NCBI GenBank assembly: GCA_030550155.1
Contig: JAUQPZ010000017.1
Location: 1-34,913 of the forward strand
DNA length: 34,913 nucleotides
DNA from: Thermoproteota archaeon
Lineage (GTDB): Archaea > Thermoproteota > Nitrososphaeria_A > Caldarchaeales > Calditenuaceae
Direction of reading: 5' to 3'
Of this stretch, positions 2,875 to 31,683 are shown one piece after another. Below the pieces are notes generated by a model. It made no database searches. It saw only the letters and a program-made list of their open reading frames with translations, and was not told the origin of the DNA. Positions within the stretch are counted from its first letter, which is position 1; each line of letters begins with the position of its first letter. The position numbers and the translations under genes are program-made.

Positions 2875-4191
2875 TCAGGGCCAATTCCACACCCTCTTCA
2901 CCGCAGTGCCCGTAGTGAGCCTCTTCAAGGCGGCGCCGACCGCGAGGGCTAGGCTCATGACGTAGTCGTCGTGCTGGCCCCGCGGGGCCTCGTACCTGAC
3001 GCCGCCCGTCTGCGTCTCGACTCTCTGATAGGCCCTGAGCTGATTAATCAGCTCCGGTGCGTCCGCGGGGATTCTTATCCTCCTACCCCTCATCAGGCTC
3101 TGAATAGCCGCTATCATCGCCTCCTTGAGGTTGTGCGTGAAGGCTACGCCCTCAACCCCGGGAAGAGTCCTGGAGAGGGACTCGTAGAGTGGAAGGCCTA
3201 TCCCCGTCTTGTCCACGGCGATTGAGACTGGGCGGAGAGCTCTCGCCAGCTCAGCTATGACATTCTCCTGAGTCTGGAAGTCTACACCCCTGAGCTCCTG
3301 TATGTGGAAGACTCTCAGGAGGCCGTCGTCAAGCCTCTCCAGCGCAGTGATGACCGTGGAGTCCCTCAGCCTCCCAACATCCACGCCGATGAATACGGGG
3401 TGTGATGCGGGCTCGTAGGCGTCTTCGGAGATGCATTGAAGTATGAGCTCGTAGGGGAAGACGGCGTTGGCCTCGTCGAGGAACTCGTGCTCCATCTCCT
3501 GAAGCCACTCCAGCTCAGTGAGGGTTTTTCTCAGCCTCTCCAGCTCCTCGCTGGTTATGTGTCTGGCCTCTGAGTAGTGTGCTGTGTGTCGCGAGAAGGC
3601 GCCGCCGGTCCAGGCCTCATAGAACCAGCCTCTACGGCCCTTGGGCGTCGAGACTAGACTCAGCCTCCCACCCCTCCCGACCGTGCTGGGGATCACGGCG
3701 GATTTCACCTCGAAGTCGTCCCTAAACATGCCCGCCTCATCGATGTAGACGCTGTCGGCCCTGTAGCCCCTTATCGCGTCGGGATTGTTTGGCAGAGAGA
3801 CTATCCTGCTCGCGTTTCCCAGCTCTAGCTGCGTCTTAGACTCCGAGGAGACCTTGACACTTCTGTATACTTCCCCGCCCCAGCTCAGTGAGGCTCTCTC
3901 CAAGGCTCCAAGTACCGTTTTGACTTTTCTGAAGAGCTCGAGGGACTGTCTCTGGCTGTAGCTGATGAGGAGTGTGAGGCTTCCGGGGTTGAGGAGGGAC
4001 TCTATGAGGGCCTCGAGGGCGATGATGAATGAGCCTCCGACGCCGCGGGATTTGAGGAGGATGCGGAACGTGGAGTCGTCGTCCAGCCACCGCCTCTGCC
4101 ACTCGTAGAGCCTGATGCCGGTCTCAGCGGCGCCTAGCAGGAGCTGAGCTAGCGTGCTCCGCCTCAAGGACGCCCACCATCCCGCCAACAA
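2875..4191 (-). CDS. Terminase large subunit (TerL)
   Basis: This is the packaging motor ATPase and nuclease that pumps virus DNA into proheads. The N-terminal ATPase carries a deviant P-loop (KSRGVGGSF, Lys47 at the front as in lambda gpA) in place of GxxxxGKS. Walker B is SVYIDEAG (about residue 150) and the coupling motif is SLVSTPKG. The C-terminal RNase H-like nuclease shows its acidic residues in FIGVDVGRLRDST, IAVDKTGIG and HDDYVMSLALA. At 438 aa it is of normal length. The start is a TTG inside the preceding small gene (68-nt overlap); no better start is visible. It is the last gene of the minus-strand operon, downstream of all tail genes, whereas terminase genes usually lead the head module. 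Confidence 0.92.
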   Translation of the reverse strand: MLAGWWASLRRSTLAQLLLGAAETGIRLYEWQRRWLDDDSTFRILLKSRGVGGSFIIALEALIESLLNPGSLTLLISYSQRQSLELFRKVKTVLGALERASLSWGGEVYRSVKVSSESKTQLELGNASRIVSLPNNPDAIRGYRADSVYIDEAGMFRDDFEVKSAVIPSTVGRGGRLSLVSTPKGRRGWFYEAWTGGAFSRHTAHYSEARHITSEELERLRKTLTELEWLQEMEHEFLDEANAVFPYELILQCISEDAYEPASHPVFIGVDVGRLRDSTVITALERLDDGLLRVFHIQELRGVDFQTQENVIAELARALRPVSIAVDKTGIGLPLYESLSRTLPGVEGVAFTHNLKEAMIAAIQSLMRGRRIRIPADAPELINQLRAYQRVETQTGGVRYEAPRGQHDDYVMSLALAVGAALKRLTTGTAVKRVWNWP

Positions 4192-7766: not shown

Positions 7767-7957
7767 CTCCGCCACCTGTATCCGAGAATCAGGGCGGCTG
7801 AGAGGAGTATGATGAAGAGCTGCTCGTGCGAAGGCGGGATGGTGGGTGTGGCTATGTCGCGAGGGTCGAAAAGGTAGCCCTCCCTTATAGCCTCGTCAAC
7901 TAACACGAAGAGTGCGAGGAGTGCTAGGAGGAGTGAGGCTCTGAGCCGCAGACTCAT
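7763..7957 (-). CDS. Two-span small membrane protein
   Basis: The 64-aa product has an N-terminal hydrophobic helix (ASLLLALLALFVLVDEAI) and a C-terminal one (LFIILLSAALILGY), ending in RWRR. It overlaps both neighbours by 4 nt (ATGA), so it is firmly inside the tail operon between the tape measure and the tail hub. Its size and topology would suit a holin-like or spanin-like factor, or a membrane protein that assists DNA entry, but no family match is visible and lysis is not otherwise represented here. Confidence 0.7.
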   Translation of the reverse strand: MSLRLRASLLLALLALFVLVDEAIREGYLFDPRDIATPTIPPSHEQLFIILLSAALILGYRWRR

Positions 7958-10278
7958 GCACCCATGCCCCTCAGGTGTGTGACAATCGCGCGTGAGACCG
8001 CCTTAGCTATCTCGTTGGCCGTCGCCTTTGGCTGGCTCACATTCACGACAACGTTTATGGCCTCTACGCCCCGTCTCTTGGCTCTGAGCCACTCTGCGAG
8101 CTTGGGTGGCAGGACCATCTCGCCCCTGTGGAGATATACGGGCATGTCTGCGGGGACCCTCCACATGCCTCTCTGGGCCTCAGGTATTGTTGTGGGAATG
8201 CCGTACTGCGCGGCGATGGTTTGAGGAATCGTAGGGGGCGGTGGCCTGGCAGAACCGGTTACCGTGATCTGGTGGTGGTAGTGGTATGTGTGAATAGTCT
8301 TCCCGTTGAGCATGTCGAGCAGGCTGTTGAACTCTCTGGCCTTCTCTATGTTGCCCTCGACGGCGGCCTTCACGGCCTCGAGGCCGGTCTTCAACATGCT
8401 GTGCAGGCTTGACGCCACGTCGTTGCTTTTGACGCCTAGCTGGCCAAGAATATCGATGAACTCTTGATGCGTGACCACCCCGTCCTCTGTCGCTGAGACG
8501 AGGCCAGTCATCGTGTTCACAAGCATATCGCCCGCCTCCTTTCCACCAAGCATGTAGAGCTGGACGGCCTGCTGGACGAGGCCGAAGCTCTGGGTCATCA
8601 GACTCAACAGCTGCGTTGTGGCCGTGAGCCTCTCCTTGCTCCGAGCCGCCTCCTCTGTCAGCTGCACTTCCCTGCCCAGCGCCTTCTCTATGCTCAGTAC
8701 CACGTCGTAGTATTGTGCAAACATTTTGGCCGCGTCGGCGACTATTCCGGCGTCCTCTGAGAACGCCTTTATCCTGGCGGCTAGTGTCTCAACCTCGGTT
8801 CGCGACTTCGATGCGCCGTCGGCCATGGATTGAAGCGCCTCGGTTAGTGGATGGAGGGCTGGGGGCAACTGCTCGCCCGCCGCTAACGCCTCTTGAAGCA
8901 TGGCTCCTAGCTCTGACCTAGCTATCGTGGAGAGTGAGAGGAGGGAGCCCGCTATCTCGAGAGCCTCGGCCCTAGTGATCTTGCCAGCCTCGACCCAGCT
9001 TGCTATCCAAGCAGCCGCCTCCTCCTCGGTGATTCTGCCGAGCATGTGTAGCTGGGTCTCAACCGCTGCTGAGAGCTGTTGGAACTCGTCTCCCGCGAAG
9101 TATGCGACTATGCCTCTCCAAGGCGTGACTACGGCGTTGGCCGCCTTTAGGGCCAGGGGGCCGACCATTGTGTAGATTCCCGCAAGGCCTTCTCCTAAGC
9201 TTCTCTGGAGCCTGTCAATCTCGGCCCTCTGCCTCTCGAGCTTGCCCGTAGTCGTCTCGAGCGTCGCGGCGAAGGCCTCCATAGCGGCGCCGCCTCTCCC
9301 CACTTCGCCTCTAAGCTCCTCGAAGCCCTCAGTCATCTGAGAGAATGTCAGAAGCGCCTTCAGGGCCCTCATGTCCACCCCCGTCAGCCTTTCCTGGAGG
9401 GTGGCGAGGTCTCCGCCTGCGGCTCTAACCGCGCTCACCACCTCGAGGATAACGTCGTTCATGTCTCTGATGCGGCCGCTAGTGTCTTGGAGTGGGACTC
9501 CGAGCTTCTCCGCAATCTCTCGCAGGTCGAGCAGGAACCTGTTGAAGACAGTGCCGGCCTCGTCGGCTGAGCCGAGACGCCTCTCAAGAACCACGAGCCA
9601 TGAGACCGTGTCCTCTAGGTCGAGGCCGAGGCCCTTAGCCGTTGCTGCAGCGTTCGCGAGCCCCCGCGCAAAGTCGTTGGCCGTGCCTACGCCGAGTCTC
9701 GAGGCGTTGGTTAATACATCTACTACTCTGGCAGCCTCGCCTCCGCTGAGGCCGAACTGGGCTAGAACCTGAACAAGGTTGTTGCCCGCCTCGGAGAAGG
9801 AGACTCCCTCGTTCTTCGCGAGCAGGATGGCTGAGCCGAGAGCCTCCATCGTGTCCTCCGCGCTGAGGCCGGCCTTGACAAGAGCCTCCATCGTAGCCGC
9901 GGCCTCTCCGGCTGTTACGTTGAACTCTCTGGCGGCGGCCGAGGCTACGACCCTGAAGGCTTCTGCGAGCTGACCGATGTCTTGACCCGCGGAGCGTGCT
10001 GCGACCGCGAGCTTCAGGGTGGAGCTCTCAAAGCTGGCGTAAACGTCTACGCCCTCCTTGGCGAAGTCGATGGCCTTGCTTATCGCGCCTGAGAGGGAGA
10101 AGCCCAGCGCTATTTCCGCTACTCGCCCGAGTGAGCTGAAGACGGCCTTGAGCCGGTCTCCGCTCCTCTCACCCGCATCGGCTAAGTCTCCGAGGCTCCT
10201 CTGAACCTTGCCAATCTTTCCGCTTATCCTGTCTTCCGCGTCGAAGATCGCCTTGAGCGTGAACTCCTCTACAGGCAC
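7954..10278 (-). CDS. Tail tape measure protein
   Basis: This is the longest gene of the module (774 aa), and tail length is set by its helical span. The first ~350 residues match the TMP_phage pattern: a helical start (FDAEDRISGKIGKVQRSLG), a hydrophobic helix (VAEIALGFSLSGAISKAI), and the conserved stretch with AREFNVTAGEAAATMEAL, GLSAEDTMEALGSAILLA and TANDFARGLANAAATAKG. The remainder is Ala-rich and helical. The C-terminus carries VYLHRGEMVLPPKLAEWL, also common in tape measures. The only possible start is the GTG in TAGGAGGTG, with an in-frame TAG two codons upstream. It overlaps the gp10-like gene by 10 nt. It was placed after the chaperones, as in siphoviruses. Confidence 0.93.
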   Translation of the reverse strand: MPVEEFTLKAIFDAEDRISGKIGKVQRSLGDLADAGERSGDRLKAVFSSLGRVAEIALGFSLSGAISKAIDFAKEGVDVYASFESSTLKLAVAARSAGQDIGQLAEAFRVVASAAAREFNVTAGEAAATMEALVKAGLSAEDTMEALGSAILLAKNEGVSFSEAGNNLVQVLAQFGLSGGEAARVVDVLTNASRLGVGTANDFARGLANAAATAKGLGLDLEDTVSWLVVLERRLGSADEAGTVFNRFLLDLREIAEKLGVPLQDTSGRIRDMNDVILEVVSAVRAAGGDLATLQERLTGVDMRALKALLTFSQMTEGFEELRGEVGRGGAAMEAFAATLETTTGKLERQRAEIDRLQRSLGEGLAGIYTMVGPLALKAANAVVTPWRGIVAYFAGDEFQQLSAAVETQLHMLGRITEEEAAAWIASWVEAGKITRAEALEIAGSLLSLSTIARSELGAMLQEALAAGEQLPPALHPLTEALQSMADGASKSRTEVETLAARIKAFSEDAGIVADAAKMFAQYYDVVLSIEKALGREVQLTEEAARSKERLTATTQLLSLMTQSFGLVQQAVQLYMLGGKEAGDMLVNTMTGLVSATEDGVVTHQEFIDILGQLGVKSNDVASSLHSMLKTGLEAVKAAVEGNIEKAREFNSLLDMLNGKTIHTYHYHHQITVTGSARPPPPTIPQTIAAQYGIPTTIPEAQRGMWRVPADMPVYLHRGEMVLPPKLAEWLRAKRRGVEAINVVVNVSQPKATANEIAKAVSRAIVTHLRGMGA

Positions 10279-10700
10279 CTCCTAACCACCTCAGAGAAAA
10301 CGCGGTATGCTTCGCGCCCAGCCTCCTCGAAGGCGGGCCTCCAATAGGGACTCGGCCTGCTCCCCGGATGTCTGACTCTTCTCGCATAAACTGTTTCGCC
10401 GCCCGCCTCGAACCGCAGCACGGCCGCCCTCCCCGGCTCTATGACGTGTGGGCCTGAGCCATACTCGACATATCCCGCGTAAGGCGCGAGCGCCTCGACG
10501 ACGGCCTTCCCACCCTCCTCACGCCTCATCCTGATGCTCTCCCTCAGCGCGCCAGTCCTAACAGGTGCCTTGGCCCGAGCCTCGTCCATGAAGAGCCGAG
10601 CGATCTCCTGAGCAGCCGACCCGACTCCCTGGCCCAACCCGTCCGAGAGCCTGCCCAGCAGGGCTCTCAGCTCCTCAAGGCCCTGGAGCTTAACGGACAC
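10269..10700 (-). CDS. HK97 gp10-like head-tail/minor tail protein
   Basis: The product (143 aa) has the gp10 family signature: an N-terminal helix (LQGLEELRALLGRLSDGLG), then EARAKAPVRTGALRESI, a beta stretch ending PYAGYVEYGSGPHVI, and a C-terminal YWRPAFEEAGREAY. These proteins help close the head-tail connector or tail end. I chose the GTG at 10700 because GGAGG lies 10 nt upstream; the track GTG at 10709 sits only 1 nt from that sequence. It overlaps the end of the small chaperone ORF by 11 nt. Its place between chaperones and tape measure is unusual, since gp10-like genes normally lie beside the adaptor and terminator. Confidence 0.85.
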   Translation of the reverse strand: MSVKLQGLEELRALLGRLSDGLGQGVGSAAQEIARLFMDEARAKAPVRTGALRESIRMRREEGGKAVVEALAPYAGYVEYGSGPHVIEPGRAAVLRFEAGGETVYARRVRHPGSRPSPYWRPAFEEAGREAYRVFSEVVRRCL

Positions 10701-10869
10701 CGGCCCCACTCCTCCTAGCCGCCCTCTTGGCTGCGCGCTCAGCCTCTTGGTCAGCCAGCCTCGCCGCGGCGACGTAGTATAGCGCCTCAGCCAGCGTCAT
10801 CTCGGCGATCTCCCTGTGGCTCCAGCCGAAGCGTTCAGCCAGCATCAGGGGTAGGAGCTCCCTGTTCAT
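10690..10869 (-). CDS. Tail assembly chaperone, C-terminal ORF (gpT-like), not in ORF track
   Basis: This 59-aa ORF was found by hand. It starts at the ATG at 10869, which overlaps the stop of the upstream chaperone ORF as ATGA, and ends with TAA at 10690. It reads MNRELLPLMLAERFGW, then SHREIAEMTLAEALYYVAA and a basic tail (AERAAKRAARR). The segment 'EIAEMTLAEALYY' is typical of the second ORF of tail chaperone pairs. It lies in the -1 frame relative to the first ORF, and a slippery heptamer lies 25 nt before that stop. It may therefore be made as a gpGT-like fusion as well as by reinitiation at the ATGA. Translation of both forms is inference; the ORF itself is plain in the sequence. Confidence 0.75.
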   Translation of the reverse strand: MNRELLPLMLAERFGWSHREIAEMTLAEALYYVAAARLADQEAERAAKRAARRSGAGVR

Positions 10870-11207
10870 CTTGACACCTGCGGTGACCGCGGAAAAGGGA
10901 GGTCCCAGAGGTGGAGCTTCTCTATCTCTGAGACGAGGAGGGCGATGACCGTGGCGGGCAGCTCCTCGACGGGGTTCTCAAGCCTCGGCTCCACGACCAC
11001 GCGCCTCAACAGCTCGCTCCAGATCTGGACAATCTTCTCCTCCCTGCTGCAGGCCCCGTCTCCGAGGATTCTGTCACGAGTCGCCATCCACTCCAGCTCC
11101 TCCTTCAACGTCATCCGCCTAAGCTTGAACAGGGCGCCGCCCACCTCGACCGAGGCCTCTCGGACGAAGAGCCTGCTGAGCCGCGTCCGCTCAGCATACT
11201 CCGCCAA
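10866..11207 (-). CDS. Tail assembly chaperone, N-terminal ORF (gpG-like)
   Basis: This 113-aa protein has the usual chaperone layout of a short beta N-terminus (VEVGGALFKLRRMTLKEELEW) followed by helices (EEKIVQIWSELLRRVVV, VIALLVSEIEKLHLW). Its position between tail tube and tape measure is also typical. Such chaperones bind the tape measure before tube polymerisation. The start is TTG at 11207 with GAGGTAG about 7 nt upstream. Near its 3' end the codons CTC CCT TTT contain the heptamer C CCT TTT. A -1 slip there would give a ~172-aa product by joining the first 105 residues to 67 residues encoded by the overlapping frame. Confidence 0.8.
   Translation of the reverse strand: MAEYAERTRLSRLFVREASVEVGGALFKLRRMTLKEELEWMATRDRILGDGACSREEKIVQIWSELLRRVVVEPRLENPVEELPATVIALLVSEIEKLHLWDLPFPRSPQVSR
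10893..10899 (-). promoter_or_regulatory. Candidate -1 ribosomal slippery heptamer C_CCT_TTT
   Basis: Read on the minus strand in the zero frame (CTC CCT TTT CCG), the sequence matches X_XXY_YYZ with X=C and Y=Z=T. A -1 slip continues as TCC GCG GTC ACC and enters the frame of the 59-aa ORF, passing through AAG ATG AAC. It is 25 nt before the zero-frame TGA. Tail chaperones of many dsDNA phages use this kind of frameshift. I did not test for a downstream pseudoknot. Confidence 0.5.
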
Positions 11208-11222
11208 GCCCCCTCTACCTCA

Positions 11223-12137
11223 TTAGTAGTTCTGCCTGCTGTCCACAGCCACTATCTGCAGCTCCTCGGCTCTCAGCCTCAGCTCCTGCGAGAGCTCATC
11301 AGAGCTTAGCGGAAACTCGACCTCCGCGACGCACCTCAATAGCTTGAACTCGAGGCTGTCGTTGGCTCCGCGCGTGAACTTTATCGTCGCGTCGAAGGTG
11401 TCCCTGCCGAGCATTAAGGCGATTATTGATGGGTCCATGTAGTGGAGGGAGATTGTGGCTTCTATGTCTGTTGTGCCCGCTATCTGTCCGGGTATGAATC
11501 CTTCTGAATCGCGGGGTAGGGGTATGTGGTTGTTGGTGAGGCTCAGGCTGCCTCCTGTGGCATAGCTGTATCCTTGGCCGTTGATGATAACGTTGACGGT
11601 CTCCGCTTTGAATGGCTCGCCGGGCTGCTCGCTGGGCGTCGGCAGCGAGCTGACTTGCTCTACGCTCCGGGCTCTAAAATCAAAACTACACTCTAGTGGC
11701 CCATCCTGCTCCCAGCTGGCCTCAACCCCCTCGACCACGCACCCCACATACCTGAAGCCGTGTGATTCTCCGCCCAACCTATGCTCTAATATTGTTATGG
11801 ATGGTAGCCTGTGCTCCTGCGAGATTCTTATCTCATGCGTGTAGGGTGGCTCGGCACCCGTGTTTGTTACGCTTCCCAACGCATATTTGAATGGTGCGCC
11901 GCTTGTGGGGAGAAAGCTGATGGATGGAGACAGGTCGAGGCCGTAGACTATCGTTCTCTTGAGCCGCGAGCCGTCCAGCACACCTATCGAGTCGGACGCG
12001 AGTCTAACTCCGCCGCTGAACTCTGTAACCCATCCGAATACCCTGTCAGGACTGGTTGCCGGGACTCCGTAGCTGCTCTCCTCACCGAACGTTACGAGCC
12101 TTCTAAACATCTCGCCAAAGACTCGGCGGCGAACCAC
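11223..12137 (-). CDS. Major tail tube protein
   Basis: The 304-aa product fits the phage tail tube family (Phage_tube_2-like): RLVTFGEESSYGVPATSP near the N-terminus, a beta-sandwich core (GLDLSPSISFLPT, then FKYALGSVTNTG, YTHEIRISQEH), and a conserved centre with SYATGGSLSLTNNHIPL and ATISLHYMDPSIIALML. The C-terminus is again beta-rich (FKLLRCVAEVEFPLSS). The tube is a stack of rings of this protein through which DNA passes. The track start is GTG at 12137; an ATG at 12110 that puts FGEESSYG close to the N-terminus is an alternative. It precedes the chaperones, as in lambda-like tails. Confidence 0.85.
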   Translation of the reverse strand: MVRRRVFGEMFRRLVTFGEESSYGVPATSPDRVFGWVTEFSGGVRLASDSIGVLDGSRLKRTIVYGLDLSPSISFLPTSGAPFKYALGSVTNTGAEPPYTHEIRISQEHRLPSITILEHRLGGESHGFRYVGCVVEGVEASWEQDGPLECSFDFRARSVEQVSSLPTPSEQPGEPFKAETVNVIINGQGYSYATGGSLSLTNNHIPLPRDSEGFIPGQIAGTTDIEATISLHYMDPSIIALMLGRDTFDATIKFTRGANDSLEFKLLRCVAEVEFPLSSDELSQELRLRAEELQIVAVDSRQNY

Positions 12138-12162: not shown

Positions 12163-13047
12163 CTAGCTTCCTGATGCGAGCTGGACGGCCTCCCTGAGGG
12201 CGTCGGCTACGTTGAGCAGTCCCATGCCCACGATGTTTCTGGGGTCTGTGGAGACCGAGAGGGCCTTCAGGATCTTCTGAACCGTGGTCCTCGAGGCTGC
12301 TTGGCTTCCCCGGATAAATGCGAGGTTGAGTAGCGAGACTGGGATGGGCTGGGCTGTGAGCTGGACGAGCCTCCTGACGAGCCTCGGCCTGGGGAGAGCG
12401 CTGTAGAGGAGGGCTGCGGCCGCCGTGGCTAGGGGAGTGGAGAAGGAGGTGCCTATTAGCCTAGCCCCACCCCTCTCAAGTTGGTATCCCGTAGGAGCCA
12501 CGATGTCGGGCTTAAACCTCCCATCCAGCGTCGGCCCCCGGCTACTGCTGGACCAAGGCCTCATCCTCATGTTGACAGCTCCAACCGCAAGGACCTCGCG
12601 GCCACAGGCGGGCGCGCCTATGCTGAGCGGCCTCGGGCCCCCATTCCCAGCGGCGCAGGCCACAACCGAGACCACGGCTAGCCTGTCAGCATAGATGGAG
12701 ACAGGGTCTCCTCCGTCGCTCGTCATCTCGCTGCCCATGCTGATGTTGACGGCGTGGGGCCGCCACTTCATGGCCTCGTGAATCGCTGTGATGAAGATGT
12801 GGTCTGGGACAGGGTTGGGTACCTTGACCAGGAAGAGCTCGGCCTCCGGTAATATTCTGTGGATTATTCTGTGAATGTGTTCTCCGTGGCTCTCCGTGTC
12901 GATGAGCGACTTGTTCGTCAGGTTCACGTAGTCCTTCAGGGGCGCGTCCTCGGCGGCCCCTGTGTCTATTATCGCGACTCTGCACCCCTCGCCCCTGCCA
13001 GCAGCATCTAGAAGCCGAATAGCGTCTAGCGCCTCTCTAAGCGACAC
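12163..13047 (-). CDS. Subtilisin-like serine protease (peptidase S8)
   Basis: The full catalytic triad is present: Asp in VAIIDTG, His in SHGEHIH, Ser in GTSFSTPLA, with the oxyanion region around CAAGNGG. The protein is 294 aa, close to a bare catalytic domain, with no signal peptide and no obvious propeptide, so it should act in the cytosol or be packed in the particle. It lies inside the structural operon between a Cys-rich small protein and the tail tube. A separate S78-like prohead protease exists at 15518-16330, so capsid maturation need not rely on this enzyme. Possible roles are processing of tail or head proteins, or degradation of S-layer proteins at entry or exit. The start is the GTG of TAGGAGGTG, forced by an in-frame TAG just upstream; it overlaps the previous gene by 22 nt. 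Confidence 0.92.
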   Translation of the reverse strand: MSLREALDAIRLLDAAGRGEGCRVAIIDTGAAEDAPLKDYVNLTNKSLIDTESHGEHIHRIIHRILPEAELFLVKVPNPVPDHIFITAIHEAMKWRPHAVNISMGSEMTSDGGDPVSIYADRLAVVSVVACAAGNGGPRPLSIGAPACGREVLAVGAVNMRMRPWSSSSRGPTLDGRFKPDIVAPTGYQLERGGARLIGTSFSTPLATAAAALLYSALPRPRLVRRLVQLTAQPIPVSLLNLAFIRGSQAASRTTVQKILKALSVSTDPRNIVGMGLLNVADALREAVQLASGS

Positions 13048-13309: not shown

Positions 13310-13678
13310 CTAAACCACCGCCAAGAAGCTGACCTCGATCATCTTCCTGTGGACACCATCGGCCGGGATATCCCTTATCGCCTCTATTCTCAGACCCATC
13401 CAGCCCCGCCTCCTCGAAGCATCTATCAGCCTGGCCGCGGCCCTGGAGGCCAGCCTGTCGCACTCCTCCGCAGACCCGTGCCAGATATCTACCTGGAATC
13501 TCAGCCTGTAAATGAAGCGGCTCAGCTCTATGTTGGCCCACCTGACTGTCGCCTCACTCATCACAAGGGTCACGAGGGGGTAGGTGTCCTGCCCGGTCAC
13601 CCATCCGGCCCTCACCCTCAAACCCGTCGCAGAGCCCAGCTCCTCCAGTAACGCCGAGACAATTCCAGATAGCTCCAT
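13310..13678 (-). CDS. Tail terminator / tail completion protein (gpU/gp17-like)
   Basis: The 122-aa protein has the layout of tail terminators: an N-terminal helix (GIVSALLEELGSATGLRVRAG), a strand with YPLVTLVMSEA, a long beta segment (IYRLRFQVDIWHGSAEECD), a helix (RLASRAAARLIDAS), and a C-terminal strand (MIEVSFLAVV). These proteins cap the finished tail and join it to the head. The ATG at 13678 overlaps the adaptor stop as TAATG. Order adaptor-terminator is normal for siphovirus modules. Sequence similarity in this family is low, so the call rests on size, fold pattern and position. Confidence 0.65.
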   Translation of the reverse strand: MELSGIVSALLEELGSATGLRVRAGWVTGQDTYPLVTLVMSEATVRWANIELSRFIYRLRFQVDIWHGSAEECDRLASRAAARLIDASRRRGWMGLRIEAIRDIPADGVHRKMIEVSFLAVV

Positions 13679-14502
13679 TAGACCCGCCTCACCGGCTTCG
13701 GAAGCAGCCTCCTAAACCGCTCGACCTCGTCCCTCAGATACTCCAGCCTCTCCCTCAGCCCCTCAGGAGCTCTTACGACCAGCGCCGCCTCACCATAACT
13801 CCTCTCAACCTGAAGCAGCCTCTGAAACCTGAGCAAGACCTCGTATGTCGCGGCAAGTATAGTGTATTGCCTGATGTGTTGTGGCGTCTCTGCGTATCCC
13901 GCGACGTATGTGACCTCGACCTCGATGACTGAGGGGAGGTAGAGCGGACCGGTCGGCGTCCCGGCGATGTATCGCCTTAGCCTGATGACGCCCTGCTCGG
14001 CGTCCTCGACGATGAACTCTGCGGCAGGGTCGATGAGCTCGCCGCCGGAGTCGTAGACTTTCACCGACTCGACTTGGACTATCCTGTCGCCTAGCTTAAC
14101 CCTGCTACCCTCGCCGAGAACCACGCGCTCCACCGAGAGATACCTCGTGAATCTTCTGCCCGTGGCAAGCTCAACCTCAGCCGAGGCCTTAGAGATGGCC
14201 AGCTCGATCTCGGAGTCCGGGATGGGGTGCCAAAAGTAGCTCAAGCTCACCTCTGCTCCTTGAGGAGCAGGCTCGGCCAGAGCCACCAGCCCCCTATCCG
14301 CGTCAACCGAGGCCGGTGAGACCCGCGCACCGTCGACAAAGACTTCTACGTCGTCGAGGACGCTGCCGTCAAAGTCGTAGTCCACTATGGGTCTCTTGGA
14401 GAGCTGGAGCACCGTCCCATTAACCGCGGCCGGCTTCTCCGCCTCTACCCTGATGGGAAGCCACTCGTTATAGACCCGGATGTCCCTGATGGATGCGTAC
14501 AT
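13678..14502 (-). CDS. Head-tail connector/adaptor protein (gp6/gp15-like)
   Basis: The central and C-terminal parts carry the helical adaptor pattern: SEIELAISKASAEVELATGR, a beta insertion, then VEVTYVAGYAETPQHIRQYT and ILAATYEVLLRFQRL. Adaptors of this class form a ring below the portal. The N-terminal ~100 residues add a beta-domain (VLDDVEVFVDGARVSPASV) not typical of short adaptors, so the protein (274 aa) is longer than usual. The gene starts at an ATG after a 48-nt gap from the capsid gene that contains a T-rich run and a TATA-like element. Confidence 0.75.
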   Translation of the reverse strand: MYASIRDIRVYNEWLPIRVEAEKPAAVNGTVLQLSKRPIVDYDFDGSVLDDVEVFVDGARVSPASVDADRGLVALAEPAPQGAEVSLSYFWHPIPDSEIELAISKASAEVELATGRRFTRYLSVERVVLGEGSRVKLGDRIVQVESVKVYDSGGELIDPAAEFIVEDAEQGVIRLRRYIAGTPTGPLYLPSVIEVEVTYVAGYAETPQHIRQYTILAATYEVLLRFQRLLQVERSYGEAALVVRAPEGLRERLEYLRDEVERFRRLLPKPVRRV

Positions 14503-14550: not shown

Positions 14551-15507
14551 TTACTGTGCGAGAGCGTTCCTGATTAGGTAGATTGCGTCGGGCTTTGCAA
14601 CTTTCCAAGCGAACTTGAGGCTGGCCGCTATGACCGTTAGTCCCCGCTCGATGTCTCTGTCCTTCTCGACTGTCAGCCTTCTGCGCAGCCCACCGATGCC
14701 AGCCGCCTCTGGGTAGCAGATGATTGCGTCGCTCACCTTGGTTTGGTCTTGGCCGCTGTAGCTCCGCTTGCCGATGTTGGTGGTCAGATAGATTGCGCCT
14801 AGGCCGAAGAGCTCGTTCACCTTACCTGTCCTGAAGATGTCCGTGCTCACACCTTCAAGCCCTTTGCCTGCGAGGTCCCTTCTCAAGTGATACGCGGCCC
14901 TTGGGTGGAGGAAGAGGACCAGCCTGTCCTTGTAACCCTTCTCCTCGAGGGTTGAGACGGCCTCGAGTATGTGGTCTGTTGTGAGGGCGTCCTTGGCTAG
15001 GTCCTTCACGTTCTCCTCAGGAGGCGCGGCGTTTACGAGGCCCGCGAAGAGGTTGTAGGCGTCTGAACCGCTCCCATCCCCCGCGAGGACATTCCTGTCG
15101 ATAGTCTCAGCCATCTTCCTGCCAACGTCTCTGACAGTCTCAGCCACAAGATCTATCACCGCCTCCTCCGTAGCAGCGTCGCTTATCTTAGAGAGAACCC
15201 TGACCTCCCTGGCCACCAGCTCTATCGGAGTCCCAAAGACTAGCTTGGACTCGGGCGGCGCCGAGCCCTCGGAGGGCGCGTAGACCTCGACGGTCTCGGA
15301 CTTCACGTAGACCCTGAGCGTGTCGCTGGACATCGTCTTGAAGCTGAAGGCCTGCTGTGAGACGCTCTCCTCCACGAATATGTCTATGATGCTCCTCAGC
15401 ACCTCGGGTGGTATTTCTGGAAAGTTGGTGTCGCTGGTGAGCAGAGCCTTGCCGAACTCTAGGTAGGACCTCTGGACATCATCTCTCTCAAGTTCTTGGC
15501 CACTCAT
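14551..15507 (-). CDS. Major capsid protein (HK97 fold)
   Basis: The track ORF extends into the protease gene; the natural start is the ATG at 15507 (MSGQELERDDVQRSYLEFGK), 10 nt after the protease stop, giving 318 aa. The HK97-fold pattern is visible: an N-arm, an E-loop-like region with VYVKSETVEVYAPSEGSA, the spine helix (AATEEAVIDLVAETVRDVGR followed by KMAETIDRNVLAGDG), a P-domain segment with LVLFLHPRAAYHLRRDL, a helix-loop (RTGKVNELFGLGAIYLTTN), and C-terminal strands (RGLTVIAASLKFAWKVAKPDA). It lies directly after the prohead protease gene, which is standard. No long scaffold (delta) domain is present, so scaffolding may come from the protease protein's C-terminal extension. Confidence 0.9.
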   Translation of the reverse strand: MSGQELERDDVQRSYLEFGKALLTSDTNFPEIPPEVLRSIIDIFVEESVSQQAFSFKTMSSDTLRVYVKSETVEVYAPSEGSAPPESKLVFGTPIELVAREVRVLSKISDAATEEAVIDLVAETVRDVGRKMAETIDRNVLAGDGSGSDAYNLFAGLVNAAPPEENVKDLAKDALTTDHILEAVSTLEEKGYKDRLVLFLHPRAAYHLRRDLAGKGLEGVSTDIFRTGKVNELFGLGAIYLTTNIGKRSYSGQDQTKVSDAIICYPEAAGIGGLRRRLTVEKDRDIERGLTVIAASLKFAWKVAKPDAIYLIRNALAQ

Positions 15508-15517
15508 ACAGGCCTGC

Positions 15518-16330
15518 TCAGCCCCCGCTGCCCTTATAACTCTGAGAGGCTCTCCGAGCAGAGATTCTCCGCCAGACATCATCGAAGACCGGAGTGAAAA
15601 GCCCCCACTCCGCCGAGCCCCCGCGCACCTCAAACCTCGAGGCGAGAGCCTTCGGCCTCCTCTCAGGCTGAGAAGCAGCCCCACGCCCCAAATCCGCAGA
15701 CTTGGCCGCGAGGAGCGGCCCCAACACAGTCTTCAGCTCAGCCAGCTCAGCGCCCAGACGCGACACCGCCTCGAGCAGTCCTCTCTCAGAGGAGGACAGT
15801 GCCTCCGAGGACTCTGCCAGGAGCCCGTCCTGAATCTTGTAGCTTTTACCGAAGGCGTAGATGATCTTGGCCTCAGGGTTTAGTCCTCGAGGCGTGAGCG
15901 AGACCTCGGTGATCTCTGCATCGGTTATTTCGCGGCCTCCGCCCGGAAGCCTCCTGAAAACCTTGACAAGGCCGCCTATGCTCAGGGCCTTCAGAAGCCC
16001 CTCCTTCACTTTTCTCCAAACCTCTTCGAAGGACTTGTAGATTCCCGCCTTGATTCTCAGCTTTCCGTTCACGTATCGGGCCTCGAGTATTCTCCCGACG
16101 GCGACGGGGCCGAGGGAGGGGTCCCTCCCATGTATCAGCAGTATCGGCTTGTCGCTGAGCCTCTCCGCGTTCCTTCTCAGAACATCCTCGCTGAACCTAT
16201 CGCCCTCTAGGTCGAAGGCTGGGGTGCTGGCCACGCCCTCGAAATATCCGATGAACTCCTCTGCCTCAAGGTCCTCAGCGGACTTCTCAACCCAGACATC
16301 AACTATTGCAGAGAAGCTGTCCCTGCTCAT
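15518..16330 (-). CDS. Prohead protease (S78-like) with C-terminal extension
   Basis: The first ~170 residues match HK97-type prohead proteases: FIGYFEGVASTPAFDLEGD, the His in LLIHGRDPSLGPVAVGRI, the Ser in LLKALSIGGLVKVFRR, and the closing EITEVSLTPRGLNPEAKI. The remaining ~100 residues contain a helical stretch (SERGLLEAVSRLGAELAEL) and a basic, low-complexity tail, a plausible scaffold domain. I prefer the ATG at 16330 with GAGGAG just upstream. A TTG at 16351 overlaps the previous stop as TTGA and is the alternative. The enzyme would trim the capsid protein during head maturation. Confidence 0.85.
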   Translation of the reverse strand: MSRDSFSAIVDVWVEKSAEDLEAEEFIGYFEGVASTPAFDLEGDRFSEDVLRRNAERLSDKPILLIHGRDPSLGPVAVGRILEARYVNGKLRIKAGIYKSFEEVWRKVKEGLLKALSIGGLVKVFRRLPGGGREITDAEITEVSLTPRGLNPEAKIIYAFGKSYKIQDGLLAESSEALSSSERGLLEAVSRLGAELAELKTVLGPLLAAKSADLGRGAASQPERRPKALASRFEVRGGSAEWGLFTPVFDDVWRRISARRASQSYKGSGG

Positions 16331-16347
16331 CAGCTCCTCACAGCCTG

Positions 16348-17829
16348 TCAACCCCCATCATAAGTCTCAGAACTCAGAGGTTGTGGCAGGTCTTCGCGCT
16401 CCGGCTTCCTCCACGCCAGATAGACCGTGCTTAGCGGCCGCATGACTATAACCCGCGCCATCGCCTCGACGTCGAGGCCGCGCTTAAGCCTTCTTAACAG
16501 CTCTGACCTAGACCTGACATGCGCAGCCCTCAGCCTCTCAAGCCTCTCAACCGCCAGCCTCCTAACTCTCATCAACACGCTCCTCGGCATCGAGGCCAGA
16601 GCCTCCGCCGCCCGTTTCCAGGAGTATGCAGCCTCAACGTTGAAGCCCAGTGCCGCGAGCTTGTCGAAGAAGGGGTCGCGGGGTGGCGGCGCGTCAATCC
16701 TAGTCATGCCTGCTTTCTCGAAGAACGGGTTGTACCGGGCCATGACCGCCAGTGTCTCGACGTATGGTGTTGGTGAGAGTGGGAGTGTCTCTCTGACCAG
16801 CTTGGCTCCCAGGCCGATGCTCCTATACTTTGGATGGACTATGACGCGGGCGACTCGGGTGAAGAGGCTGTTCACCGTCTTAGCCCAGCCTGCCATGCCT
16901 CCAGCTTCCCTAAACTTTTCACGGAGAAAGGGAAAGGCTCTAAACCGGGACGAGAGCATCAATATCGGGGACGAGTAGACGATCACCCCCGCTAGCTCTC
17001 CTCCGACCCGCGCCCTGTAAACAGCCCTGACGCCAAAGACCCTCCCAGGCTTATAGTGGAGGTGCTTTAGCACCGCGTAGTCCTTCAAGCCGCCACGCTC
17101 AATCACGGCCTCTTCGAGGAGGCTGCAGGGCCGCGGCCCAGGAGAGAGATACTCCACGCTCACGGATGGGCCGAACCCCTTCCTCACCACTATGTCAGGG
17201 TTCAGGTCGGATGCTATATCCTCGTGCGTCGTCGCTGCGAGGACTGTCACGCCCCGCCGCCTAGCGGACTTTTGGAGACAGTAGGCCACGGCCTTCGCCG
17301 TCGCCCTGTCAAGTGTCGAGGTGAACTCGTCCAAGACCCAAGTCCTCGCCCTAGAGTCCAAGAGCCTCGCAATACGGTAGCGATATCTTTGCCCGTCGCT
17401 GAGCTCCTCGAATCTTCTGAGGAAGAGGTAGGCATCGTTGAGCCCCGCGAGGCTGAGCTTCTCTATCGCGTCCGAGACATCGTCTCCGAGAGTCTCGATA
17501 ATCGGGGCGTCGCGTCTAATCCTGATTCGGGATGCGTCAAGGACAGGCCTGAACTCTTCAAGCACACCCATCTCCTCCGCGACAGCTCTTAGGAGCAGGC
17601 TCTTACCACCCCCCGACTCTCCGAGGACAAGTAGGATTTGGCCTGGGTTGATCTCGAGCTGGAAGTCTTGAAAGACGGTGAAGACCTGCTCTTCGTCGAC
17701 TCCTATGCCGAATGCCTCGGCCACGGCTAATATGCGCCTCGACGGCCTCACCGAGGTCCTGAATCTCTTATCCACTCTGAAGAGTCGTCTGGCGAAATAC
17801 TCCGGCCTAGCCCTGACAGTTATCCTCAT
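16348..17829 (-). CDS. ABC ATPase fused to GNAT acetyltransferase-like domain (COG2401 type)
   Basis: The N-terminal half (about residues 40-240) is a soluble ABC ATPase: Walker A GESGGGKSLL, signature LSDGQRYRY, Walker B TWVLDEFTSTLD and an H-loop at ATTHED. The second half (about 250-400) resembles a GNAT acyltransferase: GVIVYSSP, then RVIVHPKYRSIGLGAKLVRE (motif A) and ARYNPFFEKAGMTRI. A basic helical C-terminus follows. There is no membrane part, so it is not a transporter. The same domain fusion is known as COG2401. Its GNAT half resembles Mom-like DNA-modifying enzymes of phages, so base modification of the packaged DNA is a reasonable hypothesis but unproven. It overlaps the membrane protein gene by 4 nt and sits upstream of the protease inside the head operon. 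Confidence 0.88.
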   Translation of the reverse strand: MRITVRARPEYFARRLFRVDKRFRTSVRPSRRILAVAEAFGIGVDEEQVFTVFQDFQLEINPGQILLVLGESGGGKSLLLRAVAEEMGVLEEFRPVLDASRIRIRRDAPIIETLGDDVSDAIEKLSLAGLNDAYLFLRRFEELSDGQRYRYRIARLLDSRARTWVLDEFTSTLDRATAKAVAYCLQKSARRRGVTVLAATTHEDIASDLNPDIVVRKGFGPSVSVEYLSPGPRPCSLLEEAVIERGGLKDYAVLKHLHYKPGRVFGVRAVYRARVGGELAGVIVYSSPILMLSSRFRAFPFLREKFREAGGMAGWAKTVNSLFTRVARVIVHPKYRSIGLGAKLVRETLPLSPTPYVETLAVMARYNPFFEKAGMTRIDAPPPRDPFFDKLAALGFNVEAAYSWKRAAEALASMPRSVLMRVRRLAVERLERLRAAHVRSRSELLRRLKRGLDVEAMARVIVMRPLSTVYLAWRKPEREDLPQPLSSETYDGG

Positions 17830-18170: not shown

Positions 18171-19358
18171 ATGAGCCTCCTCAAACGCTTCTTCGGAAAG
18201 TCTAGGAGGGTGGAGCAGCCCAAGGCCCTCACCTCAAGCCACATAGACGGCTACTGGGGCGAGCCGAGAGAGGTTGACTACCGAGGACTTCTACGCATAG
18301 CCCTCTCAGACGTCTCAGTAAGAATGTGCGTGGACGCCTACATAGCAGCTGCGGCCTCACCCGGCTACATAGTTAGCTCAAGCGACGAAGACGTCAAGGA
18401 ACTGGTTGAGAGGTATCTCGCCGAGCGCGGTGTCGAGACAAGCCAGCTCATAAAGAGGCTGATAAGCTCTCTGATGCTCTTCGACGAGGCCTTCGTCGAG
18501 ACCACCTCCGACTTCCCCAGACTGATTGCGCCGTGGACCATGAGTATTGTCAGGGACGAGTATGGCAGGGCTGAGAAGTATGTCCAGACGGAGCCTAGGA
18601 GGGTTGAGCTGGGGCTTGACGAGGTAATCCACGTAGTCTCGACGCCTTATCTCGACTTCGCCTACCCGGTGCCTAGGCTCCAGACACTCTACAGGCTCAT
18701 ACTGACCAAGAGGGAGGCGGAGGTCTTCTATTACCAGATACTGATGAGGAAGGGGATACCTGCCAAGGCCTTCATCTACCGCGGCTTGGACGCGGCGACG
18801 TTCAACGAGGCTGTCAGGGCGGTCCAGGGCTCGAAGCCTGGCGACACGCTGGCCCTGATGGGGGACTGGGAGGTCCTAGACCTCGGGAGCCCCGTCAAGG
18901 ACCTGGACCTCAACGGGTTGATGGAGTCCATCGAGCAGAGAATCTTGGCGCTTTTCGGTGTGCCGAGGATAATTCTAGGCTTCACGGAGGCGGCGACGCT
19001 TGAGACCTCGAGGAACCAGCTCGTCGTCTTCCAGCAGCGCGTCAAGGACCTCCAAGAGCTTGTCGCCTCCACGCTCACGGAGGCCTTCAGAAGGATACTC
19101 GGAGTAGGAGGCTTCTCGATAAAATTCAACGAGTGGACCAGCGCCGAGCAGCTCACAAGGCTGACATCCATGAAACTCGAGGCAGGTCTCATCTCGATAA
19201 ACGAGGCCAGAGCTCAGCTCGGACTACCAGAGGTCGACCTAGAATATGCGAGGGCCCCGCTCCCGCCAGCCCTCTCTAAAGCCCTGGCCGAGCGCATCTC
19301 AGAGTCCCTCGACGAGTTGGCATCTAGGCTGGCGGAATCGGGTGCTCCGCGTCGATGA
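18171..19358 (+). CDS. Portal protein
   Basis: The 395-aa protein shows the portal family pattern: VDYRGLLRIALSDVSVRMCV near the start, the wing/clip part with FPRLIAPWTMSIVRDEYGRAE, the conserved VIHVVSTPYLDFAYPVPRLQ and ILALFGVPRIILGFTEAATL, then EFRRILG-like helices and a C-terminal helix. It forms the 12-mer ring through which DNA enters and leaves. The start ATG is preceded by GGTGAG. It is the only structural gene on the plus strand, divergent from the rest and far from TerL. The next gene overlaps as ATGA. Confidence 0.9.
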   Translation: MSLLKRFFGKSRRVEQPKALTSSHIDGYWGEPREVDYRGLLRIALSDVSVRMCVDAYIAAAASPGYIVSSSDEDVKELVERYLAERGVETSQLIKRLISSLMLFDEAFVETTSDFPRLIAPWTMSIVRDEYGRAEKYVQTEPRRVELGLDEVIHVVSTPYLDFAYPVPRLQTLYRLILTKREAEVFYYQILMRKGIPAKAFIYRGLDAATFNEAVRAVQGSKPGDTLALMGDWEVLDLGSPVKDLDLNGLMESIEQRILALFGVPRIILGFTEAATLETSRNQLVVFQQRVKDLQELVASTLTEAFRRILGVGGFSIKFNEWTSAEQLTRLTSMKLEAGLISINEARAQLGLPEVDLEYARAPLPPALSKALAERISESLDELASRLAESGAPRR

Positions 19359-30633: not shown

Positions 30634-31683
30634 ATGGGCTCTGTCAAGATGGGTATGCTGGGCTCAGGTTTCGTCGTCTCATATTTCCACCTGCCAGCCC
30701 TGATGGAGATTCCGAAGGCCGAGGTCGTAGCTATCGGGAGTAGGAGACAGGCACCGGTAGAAGAGCTCGCGAGGAGGTTTGGAGTGAAGAAGACCTATTA
30801 CGGCGACAGGTATCTGGAGAGACTCTGCACAGACCCCGAGATAGACACGGTCTTCATCTGCCTGCCCAACTTCCTCCACCTCGAGGCCACGCTGCGCGCA
30901 GCAGAGAACGGCAAAAACGTGATCTGTGAGAAGCCGCTGGGAAGAAACGCGGAAGAGGCGAAGGCGATGCTTGACGCGGTTGAGAGATACGGCGTTCTAC
31001 ATGGATACGCTGAGGACCAGGTCTTCTCGCCACAGATCACGAGGGTGAAGGGGATGATAGATAGTGGCGCCCTCGGAAAAGTCTTCTGGGTCAGGACTCG
31101 GGAGGCTCACTTCGGCCCACACTCAGATTGGTTCTGGAATCCGGAACTATCGGGCGGAGGCTCACTCCTCGACATGGGCTGCCACTCGGTTGAGGTGGCG
31201 CGCTACTTCATCGGCGACGAGCCCGTAGAGGTTATGGGCTGGGGAGCGACGCTCGTCCACACAGCCAAGACAAGGGCCGAGGACAACAGCCTAGCCGTGG
31301 TGAGGTATCAGGGCGGGCAGATCGGGCAGTCTGAGAACAGCTGGGCCGCTCACGGAGGCCTCGACCTGAGATACGAGGTCTATGGCTCGGAGGGTGCGGC
31401 TTTCATAGACACGACGAGGGATACAGGTATCAGGGTCTTCACGGTGGCTCCGGAGGAGAAGGTTGGATACGTGGTAGAGAAGGCGGAGGTCGGGCGTGGA
31501 TGGATGTATCCCATCTGGCGCGAACACGAGCTCTACGGCTACCTACACGAGCTTCAACACTTCGTCGACGCCTTCTCGCAGGGAAAGATGCCGAGAGAGA
31601 CTTACAGGGATGGCTACATAGTCAACAAGATACTCGACGCCGCCTACAAGTCCATGAAGAGCGGCCGCTGGGAAAAGATATAA
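30634..31683 (+). CDS. Gfo/Idh/MocA family NAD(P)-dependent oxidoreductase
   Basis: The N-terminal Rossmann fold begins KMGMLGSGFVVSYFHLPALM, with DTVFICLPNFLHLEATLRAA and the family EKP motif in NVICEKPLGRNAEEAKAML. The C-terminal domain has LLDMGCHSVEVARYFIGD. This family acts on sugars, inositols or related substrates; the substrate cannot be told. I use the ATG at 30634 (349 aa) because of the TATA position, not the GTG/ATG upstream in the preceding gene. Confidence 0.85.
   Translation: MGSVKMGMLGSGFVVSYFHLPALMEIPKAEVVAIGSRRQAPVEELARRFGVKKTYYGDRYLERLCTDPEIDTVFICLPNFLHLEATLRAAENGKNVICEKPLGRNAEEAKAMLDAVERYGVLHGYAEDQVFSPQITRVKGMIDSGALGKVFWVRTREAHFGPHSDWFWNPELSGGGSLLDMGCHSVEVARYFIGDEPVEVMGWGATLVHTAKTRAEDNSLAVVRYQGGQIGQSENSWAAHGGLDLRYEVYGSEGAAFIDTTRDTGIRVFTVAPEEKVGYVVEKAEVGRGWMYPIWREHELYGYLHELQHFVDAFSQGKMPRETYRDGYIVNKILDAAYKSMKSGRWEKI

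Follow-up and report, generated by a model that had tools for sequence, protein, structure and literature searches.

Predicted programmed −1 frameshifting in the tail assembly chaperone gene pair of a thermophilic archaeal head-tailed provirus

A programmed −1 frameshift very probably yields a G/GT tail assembly chaperone pair in a head-tailed provirus of a thermophilic archaeon, as judged from comparison of the nucleotide sequence with that of its homologues. The window, that is, the whole 34.9-kb stretch of DNA analyzed here, makes up contig C42 in its entirety; the contig belongs to a draft archaeal genome of 1.44 Mb in 45 contigs, probably from the order Caldarchaeales. According to our model, most ribosomes would read the G open reading frame (ORF) to its own stop codon, and a minority would slip back one base at C_CCT_TTT (P-site tRNA, CCU to CCC; A-site tRNA-Phe, UUU to UUU) and would continue to produce a 172-aa GT fusion. 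By analogy with lambda, G may bind the tape measure protein and the T part may recruit the tube protein, so that many G and few GT copies would coat the tape measure protein. A genus-specific ATGA start could add some free T. The slip itself, its rate, the G:GT ratio, and the role in assembly are all predictions. The features concerned are as follows.

10866..11207, minus strand: G ORF, tail assembly chaperone, zero-frame product of 113 aa with a TTG start
10893..10899, minus strand: slippery heptamer C_CCT_TTT (P site CCT to CCC, A site TTT to TTT), identified from the sequence and from its equivalent in all homologues
10690..10899, minus strand: −1 frame entered after the slip, 67 residues past the shared Phe, giving the 172-aa fusion GT
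10690..10869, minus strand: T ORF if begun at its own ATG, 59 aa, in the −1 frame relative to G
10866..10869, minus strand: ATGA overlap of the T start and the G stop, confined to the window's genus
10875..10879, minus strand: AGGTG, a putative Shine-Dalgarno element located 5 nt upstream of the T ATG, with a presumed function

Shift site and its recurrence in homologous gene pairs

A first-pass annotation, made from the window's letters, had claimed that C_CCT_TTT lies in the zero frame shortly before the G stop and that a −1 slip leads into the 59-aa T ORF. Both claims were borne out: the heptamer occupies minus-strand positions 10899-10893, where it is read in frame zero of G, 24 nt separate it from the TGA, and no stop interrupts the −1 frame between the heptamer and the end of T. 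The TTG start of the window's G ORF aligns with ATG in relatives. For the residues L-P-F and the local codon usage, the chance of a slippery heptamer at this place in the window is 0.07, so that the window taken alone is no more than suggestive, and it is the comparative evidence from homologues that carries the site far beyond chance. A scan of both strands of the window for a late heptamer followed by a long −1 extension gave two matches, the G-T site and GGGAAAG at 31581; the latter, inside a host-type gene (Gfo/Idh/MocA oxidoreductase-like by eye), we regard as a chance site.

Homologous pairs were collected by several routes. A search with the tube protein detected 10 further proviruses within the order, and the G profile and the T profile each recovered this set of genomes and no others, 11 of the 44 genomes of the class with the window's own counted. 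The T profile added three IMG/VR contigs, and the G profile added one provirus, L054, from another class of the phylum. Searches of IMG/VR with a single G protein and a single tube protein found no relative, the aligned G sequences offered no segment of sufficient conservation to serve as a query, and a search of the class of G060 with its T domain found no further one. A match in G098 from the phylum search (L055) was discarded as a false positive: it sits inside an unrelated ORF, and its surroundings showed no tail genes.

A −1 heptamer was present at the matching place in all 15 pairs (the window and 14 homologous pairs), in five forms, and G identity among the pairs inside the order was 24 to 77%. 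The heptamer was CCCTTTT in the window, L012, and L013; CCCTTTA in L004, L005, and L054; GGATTTT in L006-L010 and L056 (6/15 pairs); GGGTTTT in L011; and TTTTTTA in L057 and L058. The P-site residue differs among the pairs, being Pro, Asp, Gly, or Phe, and thus a conserved peptide does not explain the heptamer. The chance of a slippery heptamer given the amino acids was 0.011 for L004 and L005, 0.033 for L012, 0.005 for L057, and 0.020 for L054. The most frequent form in this set, GGATTTT, departs from a perfect X_XXY_YYZ heptamer and would arise with a chance of 0.26 to 0.40 in each M-D-F sequence, so this clade counts less. Nevertheless, pea enation mosaic virus, a eukaryotic RNA virus with unrelated genes, shifts frame at G_GAU_UUU (PMC5009743). 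The first-pass annotation had asked whether the heptamer and the −1 relation are kept as the protein changes, which is what we observed, and had named homologues that keep the ATGA overlap without any slippery site as evidence to the contrary; none was found among the homologues.

A downstream stem or pseudoknot had likewise been suggested for prediction, and neither the site folds nor the consensus folds revealed a conserved one. Folds of the 81 nt downstream of the 15 sites gave shuffle z-scores of about −1.6 to +1.6, and neither the consensus fold for the three genus members nor that for the GGATTTT clade contained a supported stem or compensatory changes at the usual spacing. Folding without explicit pseudoknots identified no stable stem-loop or pseudoknot 5 to 9 nt downstream. 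Besides, a stem in the window (CUCCCU/AGGGAG) that would hide the heptamer was considered and rejected, being conserved within the coding blocks only; a ribosome on the site would melt it.

Routes to T and alternative readings

Most relatives have a T frame without a usable start codon. The T frame of L009 contains no ATG, GTG, or TTG anywhere, and in L006, L007, L008, L012, L056, L057, and L058 there is no start codon from the frame's upstream stop to the conserved T motif; in L057, a stop codon in the T frame stands immediately ahead of the heptamer. Frameshifting is therefore the sole evident route to T in most relatives. The ATGA start of T is limited to the window's genus (the window, L004, and L005), which makes frameshifting the ancestral, general way of producing T and separate T an addition at most. 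Thus, the ATGA overlap proposed in the first-pass annotation as a second route holds for the window's genus, where the overlap is present, but not for the relatives outside it, where it is absent.

The residues between the heptamer and the T ATG were also informative. The residues FSxxxAG ahead of the window's T ATG are conserved with relatives having no ATG, and in the other clade Leu stands where the window has its T Met, which may thus be an ordinary residue. When the seven post-slip codons, which lie upstream of the window's T ATG, were compared between the genus clade and L006-L011/L056, the mean BLOSUM62 score was 1.79 in the −1 frame versus 0.51 in the zero frame and −0.38 in the +1 frame. 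This higher similarity in the −1 frame before the T ATG suggests selection as a fusion protein.

Within the genus trio, the codons from −39 to +50 round the site show unusual constraint, 15 of 18 being identical there versus 35 of 79 elsewhere (Fisher p=0.0035). Two 23-nt blocks, CTCCACCTCTGGGACCTCCCTTT and GGTGTCAAGATGAACAGGGAGCT, in window positions 10930-10820 (minus strand) are identical in all three members (the window, L004, and L005); this identity extends to synonymous positions, and no supported structure accounts for it. GGTGTCAAGATGAACAGGGAGCT belongs with the Shine-Dalgarno-like AGGTG. Together, this element and the identical block make some free T possible in the genus.

These observations bear directly on the alternatives. 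If translational coupling were the only route, T would be a separate 59-aa protein made by reinitiation at ATGA and the heptamer would be incidental. The AGGTG 5 nt upstream of the window's ATGA and the identity of GGTGTCAAGATGAACAGGGAGCT in the three genus members agree with this, but we consider it very unlikely, because no such start occurs outside the genus, several relatives lack any start before the T motif, the −1 codons ahead of the window's ATG are conserved as protein, the T Met may be an ordinary residue aligned with Leu elsewhere, and the genus itself keeps a heptamer, CCCTTTT or CCCTTTA. A tentative possibility, somewhat doubtful in our judgment, is that both routes operate in the window's genus, GT being made by frameshifting and free T by coupled initiation; this would be a refinement of the frameshift reading rather than an exclusive alternative to it. 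The joint conservation of the heptamer, the Shine-Dalgarno-like element, and the ATG would fit such a combination, as would the unusual constraint on codons near the site, although dual coding over 27 nt partly explains that constraint and the comparison comprises three sequences. We are not aware of any function of free T in lambda.

The fused frame might also be made by RNA polymerase slippage at the T run instead of ribosomal slippage, since the site holds a run of four T and the outcome in reading frame would be the same. What the sites share, however, is a codon-phased P/A-site pattern, and CCCTTTA, GGATTTT, and GGGTTTT contain runs of only three or four T, whereas typical transcriptional slippage occurs at longer runs; we therefore judge this origin extremely unlikely. 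The chance that the two frames stem from a single gene broken by an assembly or sequencing error, or by decay of the provirus, is practically negligible: even though the window comes from a draft in 45 contigs, the two-frame layout recurs in 14 independent homologous sequences with both parts conserved, and one of the homologues comes from a single-contig genome. Programmed −1 ribosomal frameshifting thus remains our strongly favored reading.

Provirus context and protein assignment

The genes surrounding the pair in the window were assigned as follows.

2875-4191, minus strand: terminase
7954..10278, minus strand: tape measure protein, expected partner of G and GT (PF10145, E=1e-29; phrog_991)
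10269..10709, minus strand: HK97-gp10-like tail completion protein, its gene separating T from the tape measure gene (PF04883, E=1.7e-10; phrog_5, E=8e-24)
11223..12137, minus strand: tail tube protein, upstream neighbor of G (PF18906, E=3.9e-19)
12163-13047, minus strand: subtilase, just upstream of the tube gene within the structural module (PF00082, E=3.1e-26)
13678-14502, minus strand: head-tail adaptor-like protein
14551-15684, minus strand: major capsid protein
15518-16351, minus strand: protein matching head maturation proteases
16348-17829, minus strand: 493-aa protein with a match to an ABC-transporter ATPase domain and a weak one to GNAT acetyltransferase
18171-19358, plus strand: portal gene

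Terminase, tape measure, tube, capsid, protease-like, and portal genes, together with host-type genes that begin by about 23.8 kb, identify the content of the window as a head-tailed provirus. As in lambda, the G-T pair follows the tail tube gene and precedes the tape measure gene. The match to the lambda gene order noted in the first-pass annotation is partial: direction, position, and the order tube-G-T agree, but the HK97-gp10-like gene intervenes between T and the tape measure gene. In L012, L013, L057, and L058, the HK97-gp10-like gene precedes G instead of filling this gap, indicating that this gene moved and the G-T pair stayed together. In L007 and L009, the gp10-like gene is followed by what seems to be a membrane protein gene in place of the tape measure gene, and their tail module may be rearranged or partly decayed. 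The position of the 493-aa ATPase-like gene, between the capsid and protease genes and the opposite-strand portal gene, is an unusual order for a head-tailed provirus.

By profile and predicted fold, G matches tail assembly chaperones, the fold match being modest. The profile phrog_344, annotated as tail assembly chaperone, matched 6 of 11 G members (best E value, 3.4e-4), the window's member not being among them. For the G model (pLDDT 81), the top PDB match was 2OB9, HK97 gp13, with a probability of 0.90, TM-scores of 0.49/0.51, an E value of 0.22, and 16% identity, and a fold search of BFVD with G returned many phage chaperones, including that of Halobacterium phage ChaoS9. Comparisons with the lambda G and T profiles gave no match, nor did a tblastn search of phage records with a G homologue. 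The T extension is predicted to be helical (pLDDT 84), and its fold search gave no match below an E value of 0.18. T showed weak, below-threshold similarity to P2 GpE (PF06528, E=0.031) and to P2 E' (hhalign E=0.0044, probability 7.8%). P2 gpE/gpE+E' resembles the present system in having a −1 frameshift between the tube and tape measure genes and a short C-terminal extension, in which LAERFGWSHREIAEMTL and VAVIFHWPPSELYPMSL form a similar stretch, the similarity being below threshold. P2 differs in its shift site, which lies within a T run of greater length (TTTTTTG as annotated), and in being a myovirus.

Occurrence across Thermoproteota and comparison with known systems

We extended the search for late heptamers with long −1 extensions to 34 other proviruses found via the tube family in the phylum, using a heptamer scanner with a look-back of 250 nt, which covers long overlaps. 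The scan gave 32 forward matches in 155 kb, 29 of them within roughly 750 nt just after the tube gene, versus 15 scattered matches on the reverse strand of the same DNA. A −1 heptamer joins a G-like to a T-like ORF in 27 of the 34 proviruses, a count that includes G107, whose pair sits slightly further out, and also G009 (GGATTTG) and G147, which look weak and may be chance. The largest family has mostly TTTTTTA as its site, followed by the −1 frame FFIRAIRRxKPHPAITxFRLCKEFGWTP, and its T often lacks a start codon. These sequence patterns suggest a feature common to head-tailed proviruses of Thermoproteota in general. With somewhat better than even confidence, we propose that −1 frameshifting of the tail chaperone is conserved throughout Thermoproteota, at U-rich sites (CCCUUUW, GGRUUUU, and UUUUUUR) like those of eukaryotic RNA viruses and with no obvious downstream stimulator, so that the archaeal ribosomes of this phylum would slip at set rates at bare heptamers.

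Lambda gpG/gpGT shares with the window the succession of tube, G, and then T in the −1 frame, as well as a heptamer late in G (GGGAAAG in lambda), and its −1 slip gives G and GT in a ratio of 30:1 (PMC5009743). The window differs from lambda in its T part of 67 residues versus about 140, in the gp10-like gene between T and the tape measure gene, and in its U-rich A site. Closer in host domain are the haloarchaeal tailed viruses, in which tail chaperone genes likewise precede the tape measure gene (PMC5009743, PMC7911831): −1 slippage between these genes was proposed for HVTV-1 and HCTV-1, -2, and -5, and +1 slippage for HSTV-2 (PMC5009743), and −1 G-T frameshifting at G_GGA_AAT was proposed for Hardycor1 (PMC7911831). 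Unlike the present sites, the heptamers of the −1 cases (GGGAAAC, AAAAAAC, GGGAAAG, and GGGAAAT) have an A-rich A site (PMC5009743, PMC7911831), and the hosts are halophiles of another phylum. The sole −1 programmed frameshift shown experimentally in Archaea is that of Saccharolobus solfataricus fucA1, a cellular enzyme gene with the heptamer A_AAA_AAT and a putative stem-loop, unlike the sites described here (PMC8211752). The first-pass annotation described such recoding as poorly documented in archaeal viruses; the proposals for haloarchaeal viruses provide earlier archaeal cases.

The kind of system is already known from lambda and P2 and predicted in haloarchaeal viruses; what stands out here is the host group, the U-rich shift sites, and the breadth of conservation, their novelty being provisional. 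Caldarchaeales proviruses have been reported (PMC10547907), and we found no report of frameshifting in Caldarchaeales or across Thermoproteota proviruses in the full-text literature, which covers few subscription papers. Programmed frameshifting in Archaea otherwise consists of fucA1 and a few predictions for haloarchaeal viruses (PMC8211752), to which the present work adds strong comparative evidence for thermophilic Caldarchaeales, the general idea being expected from phages. The 15 homologous natural shift sites, along with about 25 others from the phylum, vary in heptamer, have few confounding structures, and are ready cassettes for measuring −1 slippage by archaeal ribosomes. Besides, the absence or mis-starting of T in such proviruses is likely to be a recurrent annotation gap.

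Two further layouts were seen among the scanned loci. In seven tube-linked loci (L091, L093, L096, L097, L098, L102, and L103), no standard −1 heptamer joins G and T, some of them having separate start codons or another layout, and frameshifting may have been lost or replaced there. In another family of the phylum (L099, L108, L109, L111, L113-L116, L119, and L120), whose T often lacks a start codon, the G and T frames overlap by about 126 to 141 nt past TTTTTTA or TTTTTTG, and the −1 motif FFIRAIRRxKPHPAIT is strongly conserved.
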